Below, in pieces: positions 7,168 to 20,066 of a DNA stretch of 64,000 nt. This DNA is from Mariprofundus sp. EBB-1 (lineage in GTDB: Bacteria; Pseudomonadota; Zetaproteobacteria; Mariprofundales; Mariprofundaceae): positions 1 to 64,000 of the forward strand of contig NZ_RCFQ01000003.1 of the NCBI RefSeq assembly GCF_003665155.1, in the 5' to 3' direction. Made by a program: the position numbers and the translations under genes. The notes below the pieces were generated by a model. The model had not been told where the DNA came from. It worked only from the letters and a program-made list of their open reading frames with translations, and ran no database searches. The stretch's first letter is position 1; the number at the start of each line of letters is the position of its first letter.

Positions 7168-8513
7168 GATTTATCTCCCGCTGCCATGTGTTTAGCAGGC
7201 ATCATAATACCTGTTGTCGAACGCTCCTGTTTCAACCAGCGCGCCACCGCTTTCTGAATGTCTGCAGCCGTGACATGACTGATTGCTTTCAGCCACAAGG
7301 GGCGATTTTCAGCACCGGTTCCGACTACTTCCATGCGACCAATTTCTTTGGCGCGTAGATAGAGCGAGTCCTGAGCAAATACATTGGCTGCAATAACATT
7401 GCGTTTGGCGGCAGCTAACTCTTTGGCAGTTACCGGTTTTTTTGCCATATCATCCAGTAGCGCCCATAGGGATTTCTCAAATGCTTCGGTTGTCTGTTTG
7501 GGACCCAATAGACCATAGGCATACCATAAATCAAGCCCCATGGAGGATTCATCGTAGCCTGCACTGGCGGTAAATGCTTTGCGTTGTTTATCGACAATTT
7601 CACGCGTCATGCGGGCAGAACGACCACCGGCCAGAATATGCGTAGCCAGAGCCAGAGATGCCGCTTCATTATCATTTTTACCCGGCTTCCATACAGGCAC
7701 TGGAATGGTTACCGCCAACATAGGCAACTGTGCAGGCAGTGTCACTTGAATACGTTTAGGGCCAAAGGGTTCTGGTTCCACTGGATTGAAACGGGCCGGG
7801 ATATCACCGTGTACCTTTATCTTACCAAAGGTCTTGGCGACGGTCTTTTTTACCTGCTCAAAGTCCACATCACCAACGACCACTACAATAGCATTGCCCG
7901 GCACATAATGTTTGTTGTAAAAAGCACGCACATCTTCAATCGTCAGGGCTTGCAGATCCTGCATCCAACCGATGACCGGATTGCGATAGGGGTGCAGACG
8001 CAAAGATGCAGCAGAGAGCTCTTCAAACATGCGCGAGTTCGGATCGTCTTCGGTGCGCATACGGCGCTCTTCCATGATCACCCGAATCTCTTTCTGGAAA
8101 TCTTCATCGCGCAATCTGAGATGGGCAAAACGTTCGGCTTCCATGGCCAGCACTTCCTGTACACGCGCCGCTGGAACGGTTTCAAAATAAGCGGTGTAAT
8201 CGGTGCTGGTAAAGGCATTATCATTACCACCCATGGCGGATATGCGTTTGCTATATTCACCTGCGTCCAGCTTTTTTGAGCCCTTAAACATCATATGTTC
8301 AAATACATGTGCTAAACCGGTTTTGCCGGGCACTTCGTCGCGACCACCGACTTTCAACCAGACCTGCACCATTGCCACGGGAGCTGAATGATCTTCTTCA
8401 ACCACCAGCTTGGCGCCGTTTTTAAAGGTAGTCTGTTGTATTTCCCCTGCATTGGCATTGGATATAAAAAGACAGGTTGATAGCAAAAACATAACAATTC
8501 TTTGCAATGGCAT
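7164..8513 (-). CDS. M16 family zinc peptidase, catalytic subunit, secreted
   Basis: The product is a secreted 449-residue M16 metallopeptidase. A signal peptide ends near residue 22 (ANA). The inverted zinc motif HVFEH is at 69-73, and a downstream EERRMR region (about 142-150) supplies the third zinc ligand region. A GGN motif and the family ERFAHL stretch are also present. A GGAG ribosome site lies five bases before the ATG. The gene overlaps the non-catalytic partner by four bases; together they resemble the paired M16B peptidases found in many Gram-negative periplasms. The substrate is not predictable from sequence. Confidence 0.92.
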   Translation of the reverse strand: MPLQRIVMFLLSTCLFISNANAGEIQQTTFKNGAKLVVEEDHSAPVAMVQVWLKVGGRDEVPGKTGLAHVFEHMMFKGSKKLDAGEYSKRISAMGGNDNAFTSTDYTAYFETVPAARVQEVLAMEAERFAHLRLRDEDFQKEIRVIMEERRMRTEDDPNSRMFEELSAASLRLHPYRNPVIGWMQDLQALTIEDVRAFYNKHYVPGNAIVVVVGDVDFEQVKKTVAKTFGKIKVHGDIPARFNPVEPEPFGPKRIQVTLPAQLPMLAVTIPVPVWKPGKNDNEAASLALATHILAGGRSARMTREIVDKQRKAFTASAGYDESSMGLDLWYAYGLLGPKQTTEAFEKSLWALLDDMAKKPVTAKELAAAKRNVIAANVFAQDSLYLRAKEIGRMEVVGTGAENRPLWLKAISHVTAADIQKAVARWLKQERSTTGIMMPAKHMAAGDKS

Positions 8514-8584
8514 AAAATCTCCAGGGAGTTAAATATTCAAGCAGCCGGGATATTGATACATCCATATTACAAATCAATGAAATG

Positions 8585-10177
8585 TTAGCGCACGCCCTGA
8601 GACTTGAGATATTCCTCATAGGTTCCGTGATAATCAACGATGCCATCCGGGGTAATTTCAATAATACGGGTGGCTACAGTGGCAATGAGTTCACGATCAT
8701 GACTGACAAAAATCAGTGTGCCCGGATATGCTGCTAAGGCCACGTTCAATGATTCGATAAACTCCATATCCATATGGTTGGTCGGCTCATCCAGCAACAT
8801 CACATTGGGGTTCTGGAACATAAACTTACCAAACAGCATGCGTCCCTTTTCACCACCGGAAAGTGCTTTCACCGATTTGTTGATATCATTCTGTGAAAAC
8901 AGCATGCGCCCGAGATTACCACGCACTTCCTGTTCACCGTGCTCTTCCCGCTTCCACTGTGTCATCCAGTCAAACAGGGTGACATCCTCAGCAAAATCAG
9001 CTGAATGATCCTGAGCGTAATAACCCAGTTTTACATTTTCCGACCATTTGATTTCACCCGAAGTAGCTGCCAGATCACCAGCCAGACAACGCAATAGCGT
9101 GGTTTTACCAATACCATTGGGGCCAATCACTGCCACACGTTCACCTACAGGCACCATCAAATCAAAATTTTCAAACAGTAACTGATCATCAAAACCTTTG
9201 CTCAATTCATTGAGTTTAAGTGCAACTTTGTTCAGCGGTTTATCCTGTGAGAATTTCATATAAGGACTGACACGGCTGGAAGGTTTTACTTCATCGAGTT
9301 TGATCTTATCCAGTTTTTTGGCGCGTGATTGTGCCTGCGTAGCCTTGGATGCATTGGCTGAGAAACGGCGTACAAACGCCTGCAGTTCCTGAATCTCTTC
9401 GGTCTTCTTGGCATTGGCCGTTAACAGCTGCTCCTGAACCAGTGCTGCCGCTTCCATATAATTGTCATAATTGCCCGGGTACATGCGCAATTCGCCATAA
9501 TCCAAATCAGCCATGTGGGTGCAAACACTGTTAAGGAAGTGACGGTCATGGGAAATAATGATCATGGTACTTTTGCGTTCCTTGATCACGCCTTCCAACC
9601 AACGGATTGCATTGAGGTCCAGGTTATTGGTTGGCTCATCCAGTAGAATAATCTCCGGGTTACCAAACAGTGCTTGGGCTAGCAATACACGCAGTTTTAA
9701 ACCGGGCGCAATGGATTTCATTAGATTGTAGTGATCTTCAACCGGAATACCCATATCGATAAGCAGATCACCAGCATCGGGTTCGGCACTATAGCCATCC
9801 ATGTCGGCAAATTCGCTTTCCAGATCACCGGCACGCATGCCGTCCTCTTCGCTTAACTCTTCCTGAGAATAGAGAAACTCACGCTCCTGTTTCACCTTCC
9901 ACAGTTTCTCATGACCCATCATCACGGTATCGATTACGCTGATATCTTCAAAGGCGAAATGATCCTGACGCAATTTACCAAGGCGCTGATGCTCACCAAT
10001 GCTGACGTGGCCATTGGTAGGTTCCAGATCACCACCCAGAATTTTTATCAAGGTGGATTTTCCGCAACCATTTGCGCCAATCAAACCATAACGATTGTTA
10101 TCGCTGAATTTGACTGAAATGTTTTCAAACAGGGGCTTATCCCCGAATTGCATAGTAATACCAGATGTAGAAATCAA
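8585..10177 (-). CDS. ybiT: ABC-F ATPase, YbiT type
   Basis: This soluble 530-residue protein has two ABC ATPase domains and no membrane segments, as in the ribosome-associated ABC-F family. It is closest to YbiT: the opening (S)[19 protein letters not shown] and the ending [13 protein letters not shown] match that subfamily. Walker A sites are GANGCGKS and GPNGIGKT; the second domain has LSGGEKGRM. The [18 protein letters not shown] linker is present. ABC-F proteins act on the ribosomal E-site. The open frame runs to 10297, but I chose TTG 10177. It gives the family N-terminus and is preceded by GGA seven to ten bases upstream; ATG 10210 is the alternative. Confidence 0.9.
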
Positions 10178-10374
10178 TGAACTATTCCGTGAGACATAAA
10201 ATTTAACCATGCAATAGTCGTTGCAAAACATGGCTTGAAAAGTGGTGCAGCTTAGTGTTGAGCATAATATATACAAGTTAGAGATCGAATAATGCATTCA
10301 TAGCACTATCTCGAAAGCTTCAATACCGATGCTGAAATTCACATGCAACAGCGCTTACGCCCAAGGTGCCCGAC

Positions 10375-10797
10375 TTACTTAACAGCGTACTCCGCGACTT
10401 GTTCATAACGCGTGATCTGATGATGAATGGGATCACTATATTGCTCAACACCAAGCCACTGAATCGCTTTTTCAAGCCCATCACTGCGCAAAATGCGTAT
10501 TTCATCCAGGTCAGCCACTTCTGCTGCTGATTTATATATCCTGGCTAAGCCAAAACTCACGGCGCTTTTCGTAACAAAGGCAACCTTCCCATGCGAACGA
10601 AATTTCGCTTTTTTCATCCGTTTTCCAGCAGAGAAAATAGCTTTAAAGGATAGGTCGCGTGTTGATATGCTTTTGCACATCACAACCAAACCAAGTTTTC
10701 CGGGGCTGTCATATTGATCTTCAAGCATTCTGGAGATATGGGCATCCAACTGCTCATCAGTCACCAGCCCATGCAGAATGACCAGCATGAAATTCAT
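10375..10797 (-). CDS. Conserved hypothetical protein, possible STAS/SpoIIAA-like fold
   Basis: The 140-residue product alternates predicted strands and helices: FMLVILHG, then a helix DEQLDAHISRML, then KLGLVVMC, then KVAFVTKSAVSFGLARIYKSAAE, then an EIRILRSDGLEKAIQWL ending. This layout is like small STAS or SpoIIAA-like proteins, but I do not recognise the family with certainty. The first ATG is at 10797 and has no ribosome site. Eleven codons upstream a perfect AGGAG lies six bases before an in-frame ATC at 10825-10827, so the true start may be non-canonical (see findings). It lies downstream of cstA and may be co-transcribed with it. Confidence 0.6.
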   Translation of the reverse strand: MNFMLVILHGLVTDEQLDAHISRMLEDQYDSPGKLGLVVMCKSISTRDLSFKAIFSAGKRMKKAKFRSHGKVAFVTKSAVSFGLARIYKSAAEVADLDEIRILRSDGLEKAIQWLGVEQYSDPIHHQITRYEQVAEYAVK

Positions 10798-10829
10798 ATC
10801 ATCAAAATGTTCAAAATGAATGCCGATGG

Positions 10830-10934
10830 CTAACTCCTGGCGCGAAGCTTCTTGGTACCATCTTCATTAATAGCATAAAATTTCAAGAATACAATCTTGA
10901 TTAGGTGGTGCTGATCATCGCGAACAGCTTCCAT
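10830..10934 (-). CDS. Possible 34-residue small protein downstream of cstA
   Basis: A short frame starts with ATG at 10934, 13 bp after the cstA stop, and ends with TAG at 10830-10832, inside the ribosome site of the next gene. The product would be a lysine-rich peptide beginning MEAVRDDQHH. No ribosome site is visible before the ATG, and I know no family for it. It could serve only to couple translation to the following gene, whose apparent start lies within five bases of this stop. It is not the usual CstA-linked YbdD/YjiX protein. Treat it as speculative. Confidence 0.2.
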   Translation of the reverse strand: MEAVRDDQHHLIKIVFLKFYAINEDGTKKLRARS

Positions 10935-10947
10935 GCTGGTTGTTGTA

Positions 10948-12651
10948 CTAGGTCGTAGTTTGATCCAATTTTCTATCATCTCTCACTTGTTTGACCACCA
11001 GCAAGGCTTCAACCAACACCCAGAATGCCAGCATAAAAATCGCTGCTCCAACGGCAGCAACTGTCCATTGCCCATTCCCTACAGCCTTGAAGATGCCCAT
11101 CACCATGCCGGAGATGGTGGCCCCAAGTACAAGCAACATCGGTAACATGGTATAGAGAATAGGTTTTTTCTTACGATAGAGATAAATGGTAACGGTTAGC
11201 AGTGTTAAACCAGCCAGAATCTGATTGGTGGTGCCAAACAAAGTCCACAAAAATAGACCTGCTGGTTTGCCGTCCATGGTGAAAAAGGCAAAGAAACCAA
11301 TCGCAGCAATGGCCAGGGTTGTCGCAACATAACGATTCCCCAATGCTTTTACATGGATGGTTTCACCGATTTCTTCAAGATTAAAGCGTAATAGCCGCGC
11401 GCCGGTATCGACACTGGTCATGGCAAAACCGACGACAACAACCGAGATAAATGCTGCAGCATAATCCACGGGAATACCTAGTTGGTGAATAAAATTGGCA
11501 TTGCCCTGAATAAACACACCAAGTTTTTGATGTAGACCGGCGGCTTTTTCCCATGAACCATAAAAAGATTCCCACTCTGCACGCGACGAAAATGCCCCTG
11601 CCGTGGTCGCCAATACGGCCAACAGTGCTAACAACGATTCACCAATCATGCCAACATACCCCACAAAGGGAGCATCGCTCTCTTTATTCAGCTGTTTGGA
11701 TGTAGTGCCGGAAGCGACCAAGCCGTGGAATCCGGACACTGCCCCACAAGCAATAACGATAAACAAAAACGGCATCAGCGGCGGAGCACCGACAGGATTA
11801 GGGTTAACGGCGGGTGCAACCCAGTCAGGAGATAGCAAGAAGAACCCGGCCAGCATCATAAACAGGGCCAGATACAATAGCAGAGAATTGAGGAAATCCC
11901 GTGGCTGCAGTAGCAACCAGACAGGCAAAATACTGGCAATAAAGGCATACACCAACAGAGACCATGTCCAGTCGCTGGCTGTGAAGCCTGTGATAGGCAT
12001 TTCCAGTCCGATACTTGTAGTGACCAGCATTAATACAAAACCCACGGCAATCATGGGCCATAAGGGGAAATTCTTTTTATAGACCAGAAAACCAATCACC
12101 ATGGCGATTAACATCAATGAGTAGGTCGGAAAGACCGCTTCCGGATGCGCTGTGGCCGGGATGTTGGCTACATCCGGTGCTGCAAACAGGCCTGAAATAA
12201 CCAGCACAAAAACGCCCATTGCCAGAGCCACAAGGAAGAAGATCACCAACAGAAACAATAAGCGTGTACGTGGACTGATGACATCACGGGCAATCGAACC
12301 AACACTTTGTCCTTTATGGCGAATGGAGAGTACCAGCGCAGAAAAATCATGCACTGCACCCACCAGCAAGGTGCCAAATACCACCCAGCACAGTGCTGGT
12401 ACCCAGCCCCAGATCACCGCGATGGCAGGGCCTAGCATAGGCGCTAAGCCGGCAATGGATGCATAATGGTGGCCAAAAAGAATGTATTTGTTGGACGGCA
12501 CATAATCGACGCCGTCCTGCATGCTATGCGCTGGTGTGATGTTATCATCATTCAATTCAAATATTTTTTTACTTAAAATACCTTTGGCATAAAAGTGAAA
12601 AAACACGAGATACAGGCACAACACCGTAATCGTCATTACTACAGGACTCAT
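10948..12651 (-). CDS. cstA: CstA-family pyruvate/peptide transporter (carbon starvation protein)
   Basis: This 567-residue integral membrane protein has about 15 hydrophobic helices and the CstA signature around GHHYASIAGLAPMLGPAIAVIWGW. A second conserved block SGFHGLVASGTTSKQLNKESDA is near the middle. CstA proteins take up pyruvate or peptides and are often induced on carbon starvation. The open frame begins at 12738, but ATG 12651 is preferred: GGAGG lies eight bases ahead and the first helix begins right after it. It is divergent from the parvulin gene. No CstA-linked DUF466 protein is present. Confidence 0.9.
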   Translation of the reverse strand: MSPVVMTITVLCLYLVFFHFYAKGILSKKIFELNDDNITPAHSMQDGVDYVPSNKYILFGHHYASIAGLAPMLGPAIAVIWGWVPALCWVVFGTLLVGAVHDFSALVLSIRHKGQSVGSIARDVISPRTRLLFLLVIFFLVALAMGVFVLVISGLFAAPDVANIPATAHPEAVFPTYSLMLIAMVIGFLVYKKNFPLWPMIAVGFVLMLVTTSIGLEMPITGFTASDWTWSLLVYAFIASILPVWLLLQPRDFLNSLLLYLALFMMLAGFFLLSPDWVAPAVNPNPVGAPPLMPFLFIVIACGAVSGFHGLVASGTTSKQLNKESDAPFVGYVGMIGESLLALLAVLATTAGAFSSRAEWESFYGSWEKAAGLHQKLGVFIQGNANFIHQLGIPVDYAAAFISVVVVGFAMTSVDTGARLLRFNLEEIGETIHVKALGNRYVATTLAIAAIGFFAFFTMDGKPAGLFLWTLFGTTNQILAGLTLLTVTIYLYRKKKPILYTMLPMLLVLGATISGMVMGIFKAVGNGQWTVAAVGAAIFMLAFWVLVEALLVVKQVRDDRKLDQTTT

Positions 12652-12749: not shown

Positions 12750-13589
12750 ATGCGGCAACTGATGTTATTCGCTTTACTGCTCAGCTTCACGGCATGCCAA
12801 CAGCAGGGCGATTTACCAAAACTTGAAGCCATCAATAGCAGCCCTGTGGTTGCGGTGGTCAACGGCATTAGTATTCATGAATCCGATATCGATAATGAAA
12901 TGGCCAACCTGCCAGATCCCATGATTCAATACCGCAATGACCCCAAGGCGCGCACGCATATTTTACGTTCACTCATTCGCCGCATTGCCATCAGCCAGAA
13001 AGCCAAACGCCTGGGGCTGGATATGAATCCGGCCATCAAGCAGCGTATGCAGGCTGCGCAACGCCAGATTTTAATTGGAGCTGCAAAATCCTGGCAGTTG
13101 GCACAAATGGTGGTCATTCAAACAAGCGAAATAGAAGCCTATTACAACAACCATTACGACGAATTCAGCGTACCAGAACAGGCCCATGCACGTCATATTC
13201 TGTTGGGTTCTGAAAAAGAGGCCTGGCAGGTACTGAAAAAGCTACGCCGCAATCGCAGCCTGTTTGAGAAACTGGCCGCGAGCCATTCTCTGGACAGTAA
13301 CAACAAATCACGCGGCGGAAACCTCAACTGGTTCCCGCGTGGGGTGATGGTAAAGGCATTTGACGATGTCGCCTTTTCTTTGAAAAAAAATGGCCTGAGT
13401 ACGCCGGTAAAAACAAAGTTTGGCTGGCATATCATTGAACTATTAGGCAAACGCCCGGCCATGCAAAAGCCTGTTGAAGAGGTGCGTGATGAGATCATCA
13501 GCACAATAGAGCATCAGCGTTTGCAACAATGGTATGAACTAGTGGAGAAAGAAATGAAGATCTCCATCACCAAACCGGAATACCAATAG
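12750..13589 (+). CDS. Peptidyl-prolyl cis-trans isomerase, parvulin-type lipoprotein
   Basis: The protein has a lipoprotein signal: a hydrophobic stretch ending LSFTAC, with the Cys at about residue 16. It is therefore probably anchored to a membrane facing the periplasm. An N-terminal SurA/PrsA-like chaperone part (about 30-140) is followed by one parvulin domain (about 145-235). That domain shows the typical ARHIL strand, SRGGNLNWFPRG loop, and FGWHIIELL ending. Such proteins help fold outer-membrane or secreted proteins. The gene starts about 100 bp from the divergent cstA and is the last housekeeping gene before the accessory island. Confidence 0.9.
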   Translation: MRQLMLFALLLSFTACQQQGDLPKLEAINSSPVVAVVNGISIHESDIDNEMANLPDPMIQYRNDPKARTHILRSLIRRIAISQKAKRLGLDMNPAIKQRMQAAQRQILIGAAKSWQLAQMVVIQTSEIEAYYNNHYDEFSVPEQAHARHILLGSEKEAWQVLKKLRRNRSLFEKLAASHSLDSNNKSRGGNLNWFPRGVMVKAFDDVAFSLKKNGLSTPVKTKFGWHIIELLGKRPAMQKPVEEVRDEIISTIEHQRLQQWYELVEKEMKISITKPEYQ

Positions 13590-13858
13590 TTCAAGGTGCT
13601 CGCCAGTGCGCCTTCATCTCAGTCAATCAATCACCGCTGTTATTCAGTAACTGAGTTTATATCTACGGTTAAAATTGGACCGTCAGTGCTTGTGAGAAAA
13701 TACCTGCTTTTCTTCCCGGAGCAGTATCAAATCAGATGACGAATCCGAGTTTAATACCCGTAAAGGGGAGCGTCCTCTTTAGCTTGCATAGAGGCCCAAC
13801 TTGCACTTCCTCTCTTTGTTGATTAATCTTATGAGTAAATTAACTCAACGGAGTAATC
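13590..13858 (+). other. Intergenic region ahead of the accessory ATPase/nuclease cassette
   Basis: There is no gene in this 269-bp gap. It should hold the promoter of the cassette. A GGAG ribosome site is at 13850-13853, five bases before the ATG. Just upstream lie a small palindrome GATTAATC (13821-13828) and an imperfect inverted repeat GAGT...ACTC (13834-13847), either of which could be an operator. A weak -35/-10-like pair (TTGCAC at 13801, TAATCT at 13824) is possible. No terminator with a T-run follows the parvulin gene. Confidence 0.35.
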
Positions 13859-15115
13859 ATGGCTATTGCTGGGTATCAGCGCAAAGAAGTTGACGCACTA
13901 CAACTCAGGCTTTCCGAGCCCCCCAGGTTCCTTCTGTTTATCGCAGGCCCACGACAAGTAGGCAAAACAACCATGGTTCAGCAGACTTTGGCACAGTACC
14001 CCTCTGCACAATACAGCTTTATCCCGGTTGATCGACCAGATGACGCACCCGCGTCAAGCATAACCAGCTCTTCCAGTGAACCTATTGATCTTTCTTTTGG
14101 GCCTCGTGATGCCCGATGGCTAGTAGGTAAATGGCAACAAGCACGCATAGCAGCACGACAATCTGAAAGCGGCCATATTCTTATCCTCGACGAAATTCAG
14201 AAAGTTCCGCAATGGTCGGAAGCTGTGAAAGGCTTATGGGACGCTGACCGTGCAGAAGGGTTGAACCTGCATGTGATTCTTCTCGGCTCATCTCCCTTGC
14301 TCATGCAGCAAGGGATGAGCGAAAGCTTAGCCGGGCGCTTTGAGTTGATTCCCCTCACCCATTGGTCGTTTGTAGAAATGCATGATGCCTTTGGTTTCGA
14401 TCGTGATGACTACATCTACTTTGGTGGTTATCCGGGGGCGGCTCCGCTCATTCAGGATGAGTCGCGATGGCGCAATTATGTAACCGGAAGTCTTATCAAG
14501 CCGAGCATTGAGAAAGACATTTTTGAGATGACCAGAGTTGATAAGCCAGCCTTGCTTAAACAGCTCTTTCATCTTGGAGCCGCCTATTCGGGGCAGATTG
14601 TGGCGTTAAGTAATATGAAGGGTCAGCTCCAGAATGCAGGCAATGAAACAACATTGGCTCACTATCTGGATCTGCTGGAGAACGCTGGACTATTAGTAGG
14701 CATGCAAAAGTATTATCGGGGTCAGATAAAGAGGCGTAAGTCACCACCAAAGCTTAACGTTCTGAACAATGCTTTGATGACGGCTACATCGGGATATTCC
14801 AAAGTGGAGGCTATAGCGGATCGAACATACTGGGGAAGAATCGTTGAAAGCGCAGTTGGTCAGCACCTGTACAATTCCGGTAGACCTGATTGTTTTTTGC
14901 ATTATTGGCGTGAAGAACCGAATGAGGTTGATTTTGTTATTGAGCGAGGCAATCGAATTGCCGCCATCGAAGTCAAGAGCGGCACAGTGCCGATACGTGC
15001 CAAAGGCCTAGAATTATTTGAAAAGAAGTTTGGCGCTTGTCAAAAACATCTAGTCGGCGATGGTGGCATCCCATTGGTCGAATTTCTTTCTTATCCGGCA
15101 GAGCATTGGCTATGA
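13859..15115 (+). CDS. AAA_14/DUF4143 ATPase with PD-(D/E)XK-like C-terminus
   Basis: The 418-residue product has an N-terminal P-loop ATPase: Walker A GPRQVGKTT at 30-38, Walker B ILILDEIQ at 107-114, and a GSSPLLM sensor at 143-149. A central winged-helix-like part follows (about 220-300). Its C-terminal DUF4143 region keeps the nuclease-like residues E330 (IVES), D358 (EVDFV) and E371-x-K373 (EVKSG). These proteins are common in accessory DNA; their role is mostly unproven. The last four bases (ATGA) overlap the start of the next gene, so the two are translationally coupled. I infer a defence or DNA-transaction role as partner of that gene. Confidence 0.85.
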   Translation: MAIAGYQRKEVDALQLRLSEPPRFLLFIAGPRQVGKTTMVQQTLAQYPSAQYSFIPVDRPDDAPASSITSSSSEPIDLSFGPRDARWLVGKWQQARIAARQSESGHILILDEIQKVPQWSEAVKGLWDADRAEGLNLHVILLGSSPLLMQQGMSESLAGRFELIPLTHWSFVEMHDAFGFDRDDYIYFGGYPGAAPLIQDESRWRNYVTGSLIKPSIEKDIFEMTRVDKPALLKQLFHLGAAYSGQIVALSNMKGQLQNAGNETTLAHYLDLLENAGLLVGMQKYYRGQIKRRKSPPKLNVLNNALMTATSGYSKVEAIADRTYWGRIVESAVGQHLYNSGRPDCFLHYWREEPNEVDFVIERGNRIAAIEVKSGTVPIRAKGLELFEKKFGACQKHLVGDGGIPLVEFLSYPAEHWL

Positions 15116-18100
15116 ATTCAGCCTCTCAGCCATTTCTTGTTCGTCGCTCCTGCACTCGTAAAGCTGAGAACAATCAGCAGGAAGAAAGTCAGTCGTTTGA
15201 ATCGTATAGGCAACTCCCTGCTTATGTGTTACTGGGTGATCCGGGGGCCGGAAAAACGGAATCGTTCAAGTTGGAAGCTGAAGAGTCAGGCGGCAAGTAT
15301 GTTCGGGCGCGGGATTTTGTAATTCCGGGACTCTGTAATCTTCAAAAGGATGAAACTATATTTATCGATGGGCTGGATGAGGTGCCCTCAGCAGGAGATC
15401 AGCGCCACCCGCTTGATCGGATTCGGGAAAGATTGGTGGCAATGGGTCGTCCCCGGTTCCGTCTTTCCTGTCGTGAGGCTGATTGGCTGGGAAAAAGTGG
15501 CGAAACAGACATGCAGGCAGTGTCACCTGGTGGTCAAATCGCCACACTTTATCTGGATGCACTGAATGACGATGCCATTATCGAAATTCTTGAACATAAT
15601 CAGGCCGTAACTGCCCCCTCAGCTTTTATGAAACAAGCAAGGCTTCATGGCCTTCACGAATTGCTTCGAAACCCACAAATGCTCGACATGCTGATTAAAG
15701 CTGTGGGTGATGGCTCATGGCCAAGCAGCCGAACCGAAATATATGAGATGGCTTGCAAGAAACTTGTGCGGGAAAAGAACCCAGTGCACAAACAGGCAAC
15801 CAAAGATAACGACCCCTCAGTCGAAGCAATGCTAAACGCAGCAGGCTATCTCAATGCCATCCATCTGATTGCTGGTCGTGGAGGTTTCGACCTTGATTGC
15901 GATGATAGTTCAGATCAATTTGTTTGCTGGAGAGAATTGAAAGAATCACAACTCCCCTTACTCCCCGTATTGAAAAGTAATCTGTTTCGGCTTGAAGGTG
16001 ATATGCGTACTCCTGTTCATCGCAGCGTGGCCGAGTTTCTAGGAGCGAGGTGTATATCGGAGCGCATAGATCAAGGGTTGCCATGCCATCGTATATTGGC
16101 GCTTATCTGCGGGGAAGATGGCGGCATCATCCCCGATCTGAGGGGGCTTGCTGCATGGCTTGCTGCTCACAATCGAAGTGCCAGAACCGCATTGATCGAG
16201 CGGGATGTGCTCGGTGTCGTGCTTTATGGTGATGTACGCAGTTTTTCGGTGGAGGACAAGAAGCGAGTCCTGGATGCACTGTATGCCGAAGCAGAGCGAT
16301 ATACCTGGTTCCGCTCGGATGATTGGGCCGATTCTCCGTTTGGAGCATTGGGAACCAGAGACATGGAGGAGACCTTTCTCGCCATACTCTCCTCACCCTC
16401 CCGTATCATTGCCGATCAGTCTCTGTTGAATTGTGTGCTTGATGCCATTCGTTACGGTGAGTCAATGCAGTCACTTTCTCAACCGCTCGAACGTATCGTG
16501 CGAGATAGCAGTTATTTGGGATATATCCGAAGAAATGCTTTTGAAGCACTGGTTCACGGAGTTCATGCCGAGATACTTTCGCTACATCAACTGGCAAAGG
16601 ACATTCGTGACGGGCTTGTCGAGGACAATGAAGATGAATTGATCGGCACATTACTTAGAGAACTTTACCCATCAGTTATCCAGCCGGCAGAGGTGTTCGA
16701 ATATCTCCATTCACCAAAAACTCAGGCGGTTAACAGCTATAGCATGTTTTGGCGTCATCACCTTGAGAGACAGACGCCAGACGAACGGCTACCAATTGTA
16801 CTCGATCAATTGGTAATAGAACGAAGCAAGAATAAAGAAACGTTCCACTCAAGTCGTTTCGATCGCATGGATGGCAATCTGTTGGCGCGCAGTATCGAAG
16901 CGCATGGCGATGCCATATCAGATGAACGGCTCCTCACATGGTTGGGGGTCGGTTCGGATGAGTTTGATATTCCAAGATTGGAAAAGGAAGATGTTGAGCG
17001 AATCGCGGCATGGTTTGGTGGCAGACCAGATCGATACAAGTCTTTAATCCAGTTGGTAGCCTCATTGAGCACAACCAAGCCTGATCCAATAGGCAGCTTG
17101 AATAAAATGATGTTCAGGCTTCAGTTGGCAAATGTGCCGACGGATATTGAAACATGGTGGCTTGAAAAAGCAGCTACAGAATCAAATGAAGAGTTAGCTC
17201 ATTTTTATTTCGTTCAGGCTGTTCGTCCGTCATTGATTCATGATGGAGGTAATGGCTTTTTGCCATTAACGAAAACCCAGATATTTGAAGCTTGGTTGGA
17301 ATACAATCCAAAGTTTGAACCGTATTTTGAGCCATTTATTTCGTGCAAGCTCGGAGATTGGGAACAGGAGCACGCCCAGCGTCAACAAAAACAGGAGGGA
17401 GAAGAAGAGGAGAAAAGAGACAAACTACTTGCTGTCTATCGGGAGCATATTGAGGCCATCCGGGATGGTAGCGCCTACCCACAAATTCTTCACGATCTTG
17501 CTTTGGCGTATAACGGGCATATCCATGATGCAAACGGCGACACACCAGAAGAGAGGTTGTATCAGTTCCTCGGTGGCGATTCGGAGTTGATTGAAGCAGC
17601 GGCGATAAGTTTCAGGCATACGCTTGATCGCCCCGACCTCCCGACCGTCAAGGAAATTGCCGACCTAGGGTTAGAAGGCAGAATGCACTATATCCGTCCG
17701 GCATGTCTGGTGGGCATGGATCAGCGCTATAGCCTTGATTCGGATAAGGCTCTGATTCTTCCCGATGAACTCCTTTCCCGGATGCTCTTATTTCGTTTAA
17801 CGGATGGTATGGGCGATGAACCAGCGTGGTTTGAAGCCTTGGTAAACACAAGGTCAGAACTCGTTGCTAATGCTTTTCTTGCCTATGTACTTCCCATGCT
17901 GCGTGCAAAAAAAGAACATATCCACGGTCTGCATTTGCTTACAGGTAAAAATGCCTATACTGAAGTGTCTCAGCTTACGCTCTCAAAACTGCTAGAAAGC
18001 TTTCCTGTCCGTGCCAATGTCAAACAACTGCCATTTATATTCAACGATCTGCTTAAAGGCGCACTCCGTTATCTAAATAAAAAACAGCTCTCGGATCTGT

Positions 18101-19167
18101 TGAGTCGAAAAGTATCCCTGAAAAGCATGGATGATGCACAACGCGTCTATTGGCTGGCTTGCGGCATATTGCTCGACCCAAAGGTCTACGAAAGCCAATT
18201 GTTCACATTCGTGGGTAAAAGCCAAAAGCGAAAAGCACACCTGACAAACTTTTTATATTCGGGCTTTAGAAATGACAGCTTTCCCGAATGGGTGAAGGTT
18301 TCCATTGACGCCCGTTCCCAATTGATCGAAATGCTGGGGCAAGATGTTTCAGATATCCGCATGGATGGCCTGGTTACCAACGAAATGCGCATGTCGGAGA
18401 TGGTCGGCTCATATATTCAGGTGCTTGGGCGCGAACCATCTGAAGAGGCTTCACATGAACTGCAACGATTGCTCGACCTCCCCTCTCTTTCAAACTGGCA
18501 CACTCGTTTGCGAATAGCCCAGCATGATCAGCAAATCATTCGACGCAAGGTAACCTTCCGCCAACCAAGCATTGCAGAAGTGGATCACACACTTGCCGAC
18601 CTCCAGCCAGCTAATGCAGCCGATCTTGCAGCCATTGTCATGGCTCATCTTCAGGGCGTTGCAGATAATATTCGCAACGGTAGTACCAATGATTACAAGC
18701 AGTTCTGGAGCTACGAAGAGAAGCACCAAAAAATGATCAATCCTAAACCCAAGTCGGAGAACGATAGCCGAGATGCCTTGCTATCCGACCTGAAAGAGCG
18801 GCTTGGAAAACTAGGTGTTGATGCTCAACCAGAAGCTCGTTATGCAGATGATAAACGGGCTGATATCCGAGTTTCGTTTGGAGGCACTGACGGATTCAGC
18901 ATACCTGTCGAAGTCAAAAAAGATTCGCATAAGGCCTTATGGAGATCGATTCGAGAACAGTTGATCGCCAAATACACCCGTGACCCTGACACCGATGGCT
19001 TTGGCATCTACCTCGTATTCTGGTTTGGCGGCAAGGGCATGCCCCTTCCACATGATGGGAAGAGGCCAAAAACTGCAAAAGAACTCAAAGAGAAATTACT
19101 GGAAACGCTTTCACTGGAAGAAAGACGGAAAATAAGAATATGCGTGATTGATTGCGCTTTGCCATAG
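15112..19167 (+). CDS. Giant STAND/NACHT-type NTPase with C-terminal PD-(D/E)XK-like nuclease
   Basis: This 1351-residue protein has an N-terminal NTPase: Walker A GDPGAGKTES at 42-51, Walker B IFIDGLDE at 83-90, and the RLSCREADWL sensor at 117-126. That triad is typical of NACHT/STAND ATPases. A long, mostly helical middle (about 200-1200) could be a sensor scaffold; it has one charged coiled-coil-like stretch near 760-790. The last 130 residues fit a restriction-endonuclease fold: D1251 (ADIRV), E1267-x-K1269 (PVEVKK), and a helix QLIAKY at 1283-1288. The start is ATG 15112, overlapping the upstream stop. The upstream frame opening at 15037 is only an accidental extension. Probable defence protein; the family is not recognised. 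Confidence 0.8.
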   Translation: MNSASQPFLVRRSCTRKAENNQQEESQSFESYRQLPAYVLLGDPGAGKTESFKLEAEESGGKYVRARDFVIPGLCNLQKDETIFIDGLDEVPSAGDQRHPLDRIRERLVAMGRPRFRLSCREADWLGKSGETDMQAVSPGGQIATLYLDALNDDAIIEILEHNQAVTAPSAFMKQARLHGLHELLRNPQMLDMLIKAVGDGSWPSSRTEIYEMACKKLVREKNPVHKQATKDNDPSVEAMLNAAGYLNAIHLIAGRGGFDLDCDDSSDQFVCWRELKESQLPLLPVLKSNLFRLEGDMRTPVHRSVAEFLGARCISERIDQGLPCHRILALICGEDGGIIPDLRGLAAWLAAHNRSARTALIERDVLGVVLYGDVRSFSVEDKKRVLDALYAEAERYTWFRSDDWADSPFGALGTRDMEETFLAILSSPSRIIADQSLLNCVLDAIRYGESMQSLSQPLERIVRDSSYLGYIRRNAFEALVHGVHAEILSLHQLAKDIRDGLVEDNEDELIGTLLRELYPSVIQPAEVFEYLHSPKTQAVNSYSMFWRHHLERQTPDERLPIVLDQLVIERSKNKETFHSSRFDRMDGNLLARSIEAHGDAISDERLLTWLGVGSDEFDIPRLEKEDVERIAAWFGGRPDRYKSLIQLVASLSTTKPDPIGSLNKMMFRLQLANVPTDIETWWLEKAATESNEELAHFYFVQAVRPSLIHDGGNGFLPLTKTQIFEAWLEYNPKFEPYFEPFISCKLGDWEQEHAQRQQKQEGEEEEKRDKLLAVYREHIEAIRDGSAYPQILHDLALAYNGHIHDANGDTPEERLYQFLGGDSELIEAAAISFRHTLDRPDLPTVKEIADLGLEGRMHYIRPACLVGMDQRYSLDSDKALILPDELLSRMLLFRLTDGMGDEPAWFEALVNTRSELVANAFLAYVLPMLRAKKEHIHGLHLLTGKNAYTEVSQLTLSKLLESFPVRANVKQLPFIFNDLLKGALRYLNKKQLSDLLSRKVSLKSMDDAQRVYWLACGILLDPKVYESQLFTFVGKSQKRKAHLTNFLYSGFRNDSFPEWVKVSIDARSQLIEMLGQDVSDIRMDGLVTNEMRMSEMVGSYIQVLGREPSEEASHELQRLLDLPSLSNWHTRLRIAQHDQQIIRRKVTFRQPSIAEVDHTLADLQPANAADLAAIVMAHLQGVADNIRNGSTNDYKQFWSYEEKHQKMINPKPKSENDSRDALLSDLKERLGKLGVDAQPEARYADDKRADIRVSFGGTDGFSIPVEVKKDSHKALWRSIREQLIAKYTRDPDTDGFGIYLVFWFGGKGMPLPHDGKRPKTAKELKEKLLETLSLEERRKIRICVIDCALP

Positions 19168-19339
19168 GTGTTCAGTCAAACTTTACTCTAGTAATGGAGA
19201 TCTAAATGTCCGCTTTTGGCTGCTTTGAGACAGTCGTGACGTCGTGCTTTTCCGACAGAGGCCAACCCTTGGTTGAATAACCGGGCGTCCCGAAGCCCAA
19301 CTCATTGCCAGCATAGACATTTTCATTTCTGGACATAGA

Positions 19340-19430: not shown

Positions 19431-20066
19431 ATGACTAATCTTGTTGTTGAAGCAGAGCTTCGCGAAGAAACCGGCCGTTCGGCTACACGCCGCCTACGCC
19501 GTGCAGGCAAAATGCCTGGTATCATTTATGGTGGTGGTAAACCTGACATCGCTATTACAATGGAGTACTTCACTGTTTCCAAACAGCTGAATGATGAGCA
19601 GTTCCACACATCTTTGCTTGAAGTAAAGGTAAAAGGCTCACGTACTAAAAACACAGTTTTGTTGAAAGATGCCCAGTGGGATCCAGTCATGGACACAGCC
19701 ACTCATCTCGACTTTTTCCGTGTATCCGCCAAAGATACCGTCACAGTGGATGTTCCGGTTGTTACCATTAACGCTGAAAAATGCCCTGGCGTTGTGAAAG
19801 GCGGCCTGATTGATCTGGTTCGTCACTCACTTGAAGTGTCTTGTCGTGCTGACACCATTCCAGATAGCATTGAAGTAGATTGTGATAACATGGAAATTGG
19901 CGACACTGTACATATTGAAGATATTACCCTGCCTGAAGGCGCTGTAGTACATCACGACGTTAACTTCACAGTATTGAATATCGCTGCACCGAAAACAGGT
20001 AGTGATGAAGATGAAGACGAAGCTGAAACTGTAGAAGAAACTGCAGTAGAACCAGCAGCAGAATAA
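19431..20066 (+). CDS. rplY: 50S ribosomal protein L25 (general stress protein Ctc form)
   Basis: L25 binds 5S rRNA in the large ribosomal subunit. The 211-residue protein has the N-terminal L25 domain (about 1-95, with the RLRRAGKMPGIIYGGGK motif). A C-terminal TL5/Ctc beta domain follows (about 96-185), then a very acidic tail of Asp/Glu repeats. A GGAGG ribosome site stands six bases before the ATG. It heads the group rplY-pth-ychF, a very common order in proteobacteria; the prs gene that often precedes it is missing here and the accessory cassette lies upstream instead. Confidence 0.95.
   Translation: MTNLVVEAELREETGRSATRRLRRAGKMPGIIYGGGKPDIAITMEYFTVSKQLNDEQFHTSLLEVKVKGSRTKNTVLLKDAQWDPVMDTATHLDFFRVSAKDTVTVDVPVVTINAEKCPGVVKGGLIDLVRHSLEVSCRADTIPDSIEVDCDNMEIGDTVHIEDITLPEGAVVHHDVNFTVLNIAAPKTGSDEDEDEAETVEETAVEPAAE

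Follow-up and report, generated by a model that had tools for sequence, protein, structure and literature searches.

STAND defence proteins of the bNACHT and Avs/AVAST type are built from an N-terminal effector, a central NTPase and a C-terminal sensor (PMC12169576). The NCBIfam model NF058535.1 carries the name 'NACHT domain-containing antiphage protein EruA' and a curated cut-off of 1000 bits; the cut-off for HyoA (NF058534.1) is 1200 bits. A literature search for antiphage EruA and HyoA found nothing, and the same name is borne by a different 'EruA' regulator of E. coli. Neither Eru, Hyo nor DUF4143 appears in the main text of the DefensePredictor paper. ATPases with a DUF4143 domain are widespread, and the literature searched on this name touches only Argonaute in Thermus. 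The PADLOC library includes the model PDLC04791 for PDC-S01, a label which we take to denote a single-gene candidate.

The window, a stretch of 64,000 nucleotides of Mariprofundus sp. EBB-1, a bacterium of iron-oxidising type, contains a relative of EruA together with a relative of PDC-S01. An AAA/DUF4143 gene and a gene for a 1351-residue NTPase had been described in an earlier note as sharing an ATGA and standing alone between a parvulin gene and rplY, and the open reading frames, the coordinates and the junction agree with this description. Both reading frames were present where that note had placed them: the AAA_14/DUF4143 ATPase gene, here called the partner, at 13859..15115 (plus strand, 418 aa) and the gene of the EruA-like NACHT NTPase-nuclease at 15112..19167 (plus strand, ATG at 15112, 1351 aa). 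The partner stop and the EruA start form the four-nucleotide ATGA overlap at 15112..15115 on the plus strand (junction ...CTATGAATTC...). An alternative in-frame TTG at 15037 would yield a product of 1376 aa; the ATG at 15112 is favoured because an NTGA overlap is conserved in nine of ten paired loci, the genes abutting in the tenth. Between the flanking genes ppiC (12750-13589, parvulin-type) and rplY (19431-20066) no further open reading frame of note was seen, no known defence gene adjoins the pair in the window, and a promoter scan detected none ahead of the operon. The G+C content of the pair, 0.47-0.50, is the same as that of the surroundings.

The pair is an accessory insertion missing from close relatives. 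Its limits, 13665..19251 (about 5.6 kb, no strand assigned), were set against the sister genome G006, which is 95 % identical up to position 13664 of the window and again from 19252 onwards, with unrelated DNA between, at both contig ends. In three other genomes (G012, G009, G014) ppiC and rplY are adjacent without the pair, and among 23 sampled genomes of the genus only the window genome has it. A housekeeping role was ruled out by this absence from the other 22. Neither the list of reading frames nor a repeat search revealed an integrase or terminal or insertion repeats around the insertion. Two contigs of G006 (C35 and C53; L070, L127) carry different foreign DNA in the gap between ppiC and rplY, and since the foreign DNA differs there, the gap may be a variable insertion site.

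The large protein matched NF058535.1 with 997.3 bits (E 1.6e-299) over model positions 1-1317 of 1318, at equal length and with the same pattern of residues, 2.7 bits below the cut-off. Its paired relatives score 873-1032 bits against this model, and two of them, L184 (1018) and L124 (1032), lie above the cut-off. On account of the full-length match close to the cut-off and the scores of the paired relatives, we assign the protein by its sequence to the named antiphage family EruA or to its immediate border; hence it is not undescribed. It differs from the described family in its own score and in its company, as the loci above the cut-off in a sample of 398 Pseudomonadota genomes lack a DUF4143 partner. 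The relation to HyoA extends over parts of the protein, but at 133 bits it is far below the cut-off of that family. Neither Pfam nor PADLOC gave a match to the large protein itself, and sequence searches of the PDB returned nothing useful.

An N-terminal NACHT/STAND NTPase module is predicted from conserved residues at about residues 36-330 (15217..16101, plus strand), with the Walker A motif at 42-49 and Walker B at 82-90. K48, D86, D89, E90 and R121 are kept in all rows of the EruA alignment that have letters there, so that the conserved Walker A and B residues mark a NACHT-type NTPase; the Pfam NACHT model matched 7 of 17 EruA relatives (best 3.4e-5), the window protein not among them. The C-terminus from about residue 1190 to 1351 (18679..19164, plus strand) probably forms a PD-(D/E)XK nuclease-like domain, as judged from conserved residues, a structure model and a fold search. 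The 26 EruA rows that cover this part agree without exception in seven residues (E1216, E1241, D1251, E1267-x-K1269, Q1283, Y1288), and the elements of the model (pLDDT 79) follow one another as in PD-(D/E)XK nucleases, alpha-beta-beta-beta-alpha-beta. The fold search produced nothing at E < 0.001; its weak matches included R.SwaI, Mus81, EndoMS and EcoRV, with Rab GTPases also ranked high. Conservation is lowest in the central region, about residues 331-1189 (16102..18678, plus strand): the mean pairwise identity among EruA proteins is 29-41 % there, 46 % in the NTPase and 54 % in the C-terminus. Such low conservation is what a sensor would show, and we presume a helical sensor or scaffold in this region. 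With bNACHT and Avs/AVAST the protein shares the STAND-type NTPase and the nuclease effector of some members (e.g., bNACHT25); in contrast to their tripartite order, its NTPase is N-terminal and its nuclease-like domain C-terminal, and the lacking PADLOC match also separates it from them.

The smaller protein exceeded the gathering scores of Pfam DUF4143 (99.5 bits; gathering 28.1) and AAA_14 (85.3 bits; gathering 27), and matched PDLC04791 over its full length with 533.9 bits (residues 6-417). In its Walker A motif GPRQVGKTT (residues 30-38; 13946..13972, plus strand) K36 is kept in all 24 aligned DUF4143 rows, and D111, E112 and R160 are retained as well. The nearest folds to its model (pLDDT 86) are the archaeal Walker-type ATPases 2qen and 2fna, followed by Apaf-1 and ORC. 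The DUF4143 region at residues 218-375 (14510..14983, plus strand), given by the Pfam match, includes the PD-(D/E)XK-like residues E330, D358, E371 and K373; the first three occur in every DUF4143 row with letters there, and K373 in nine of ten paired proteins (R in L010). We take the partner to be a P-loop ATPase resembling ORC and STAND proteins, its C-terminal domain being nuclease-like. A loop distinguishes it from unpaired relatives. Between D58 and W87 all ten paired DUF4143 proteins have 26-33 residues, whereas all 14 unpaired ones in the alignment of 24 have 8; in the window protein this pair-specific loop covers residues 59-86 (14033..14116, plus strand) and is disordered in the model (pLDDT <50 at 62-79). 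Unpaired copies checked in a further gammaproteobacterial sample were short-loop, and the sole other long-loop copy of that sample, G565, is cut by a contig end.

The two-gene order was found in ten loci, which come from genomes of Mariprofundaceae, beta- and gammaproteobacteria and from one record of a viral contig; this answers the earlier suggestion to survey the adjacency in unrelated genomes. Recurrence of the same order in ten loci places the pairing beyond chance. Besides the window and G311 (L058), searches with the partner gave six pairs (L006 on a contig of G070, L007, L008, L009, L010 and, from a viral contig, L124), and searches with EruA, run in a gammaproteobacterial class and also in the order to which G311 belongs, contributed L181 and L184. 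Since L009/L010 and L007/L008 are close pairs, these loci represent about eight independent lineages. Most EruA relatives found stand alone. In the sample of 398 Pseudomonadota genomes, EruA matches above 500 bits came from the window and from 17 other loci, and of these 17 only G311 has an adjoining partner; of the other sixteen, G165 shows only about 300 bases upstream, too little to exclude a partner, and G070, cut by a contig end, is an additional paired case. Nine loci above the EruA cut-off in this sample have no adjacent DUF4143 gene of the paired kind. All three partner matches above 760 bits adjoin EruA, and for the next class (452-483 bits) no EruA neighbour was detected in these genomes. 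A scan of genome contigs with the large protein alone as query gave no relative, while the same scan with the partner found relatives; E. coli genomes searched with a solo EruA gene had no match. Two zetaproteobacterial reading frames of about 1450-1520 codons (L042 in G034, L045 in G022) match EruA partially and are possibly HyoA-like. The EruA genes of L057 and L183 have an internal stop codon or are otherwise broken and apparently decaying.

In the EruA tree all ten paired proteins fall into one clade of 13 rows (SH-aLRT 99); of the remaining three, L056 and L179 are solo, and the third lies where its contig breaks off. The ten paired DUF4143 proteins likewise form an exclusive clade (100/99), separate from the 14 unpaired relatives. 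Distance matrices of EruA and partner correlate with r 0.93 (Mantel p 0.0002, 8 pairs), and the NTGA overlap persists at a protein divergence of up to 47 % for the partner and 66 % for EruA. The pairing is real and specific, and confined to one branch of EruA. For the 13-row clade, one gain and a few losses of the partner would fit the trees, as might other histories. The view of the earlier note that both genes are one system is borne out to the extent that they behave as a heritable unit, with an exclusive partner clade, matching trees, a conserved overlap and an accessory insertion. That note had also named a finding that would speak against its idea, homologues of the large gene mostly without the partner and at a fixed site: most EruA relatives do lack the partner, but the sites are not fixed. 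Not every EruA needs the partner, then, for most EruAs are solo, among them two members of the partnered clade.

EruA alone could be the defence system, with the DUF4143 gene an uncoupled passenger that shares the operon as a second, stand-alone candidate of the PDC-S01 kind. The predominance of solo EruAs, two of them inside the partnered clade, the solo occurrence of DUF4143 relatives in many phyla and the single-gene label of PDC-S01 all favour this explanation, which we nevertheless hold to be unlikely. A passenger would not be expected to make up a clade of its own, marked by a loop that every unpaired relative lacks, to keep the overlap through such divergence, or to adjoin EruA in every high-scoring copy of the 398 genomes. 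Despite the full-length match to PDLC04791, the partner is not a single gene, overlapping or abutting EruA in the window and in nine other loci, and where the contig lets this be seen the long-loop branch is always with EruA. The matching trees are no proof of contact between the proteins, because co-transferred genes also match.

The pair might instead be directed at plasmids or other mobile DNA. A conflict system of that kind would follow an identical molecular logic, and EruA relatives do occur on plasmids; the family is named antiphage by NCBIfam, however, and its members accompany phage-defence genes and are also found in phage-like contigs, which leaves a target other than phages improbable. 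In the paired locus L124 a type I methyltransferase and a WYL regulator are nearby, and in the paired L184 a NERD-UvrD gene (PADLOC C3a187; 10194-12182) follows about 135 bases downstream of EruA. A distant solo relative (L065, 10107-14179) directly precedes the Gabija pair GajA/GajB identified by PADLOC, and type I restriction-modification genes lie beside the relative in L059. On the IMG/VR contig L179 the solo relative (7315-11430) is located amid phage-like genes. The reading of the earlier note is supported in so far as the large protein combines an NTPase with a nuclease-like domain and is connected with defence. We consider it similarly improbable that the DUF4143 protein restrains EruA like an antitoxin and that the pair is a toxin-antitoxin-like module of abortive infection. 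Its gene is first in order and translationally coupled, and the EruA nuclease is potentially harmful, yet solo EruAs bear the same nuclease residues without a partner, so restraint is not generally required.

Our preferred reading, to which we give a probability of about 0.6, is that both genes belong to a single operon acting against phages (or mobile elements), in which EruA takes a two-gene form with the DUF4143 ATPase as dedicated regulator or co-sensor. The observations behind it are the gene order and overlap, the conserved motifs, the partner's class of fold, the co-inheritance, the insertion and the defence neighbours of relatives. The earlier note had asked for a profile search against defence models and considered the pair a candidate undescribed system. 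That search gave matches to EruA (NCBIfam; 997.3 of 1000 bits) for the large protein and to the candidate PDC-S01 (PADLOC) for the partner. The large gene is thus not undescribed, whereas the pairing is in none of the libraries searched. PADLOC, Pfam and NCBIfam contain no named system for the pair, and the literature searched, whose coverage does not extend to the paper naming EruA, gave no published name. As far as found, the small gene is a co-inherited ATPase partner of one EruA branch only, apparently undescribed within these searches.

Under the two-gene reading, sensing, assembly, DNA cutting, contact between the proteins and the anti-phage effect are what we infer for the mechanism. 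EruA would be a STAND-type receptor of unusual order: a NACHT NTPase, a long, fast-evolving presumed sensor and a PD-(D/E)XK nuclease. Infection would be sensed through the N-terminal NTPase and the central region, a phage cue would lift the resting state, and NTP binding would drive assembly. The nuclease domains of the assembled EruA might then cut DNA and so halt either the phage or its infected host. The DUF4143 ATPase, encoded upstream and produced in concert with EruA, would act as dedicated regulator or co-sensor, with the pair-specific loop as the most plausible point of contact. More tentatively, and with doubt prevailing, the products may form an immune complex of two ATPases and two nuclease folds, in which a NACHT receptor of reversed order works only with a dedicated, loop-bound ORC/STAND-like DUF4143 ATPase.

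A DUF4143 branch strictly tied to a named antiphage receptor, and recognizable by a diagnostic loop, offers a handle on one function of these ATPases. The pair suggests that EruA systems exist in one-gene and two-gene forms, the latter of which would be missed by the EruA model alone. Should the two-ATPase complex prove real, one branch of the abundant DUF4143 ATPases would thereby gain a function.
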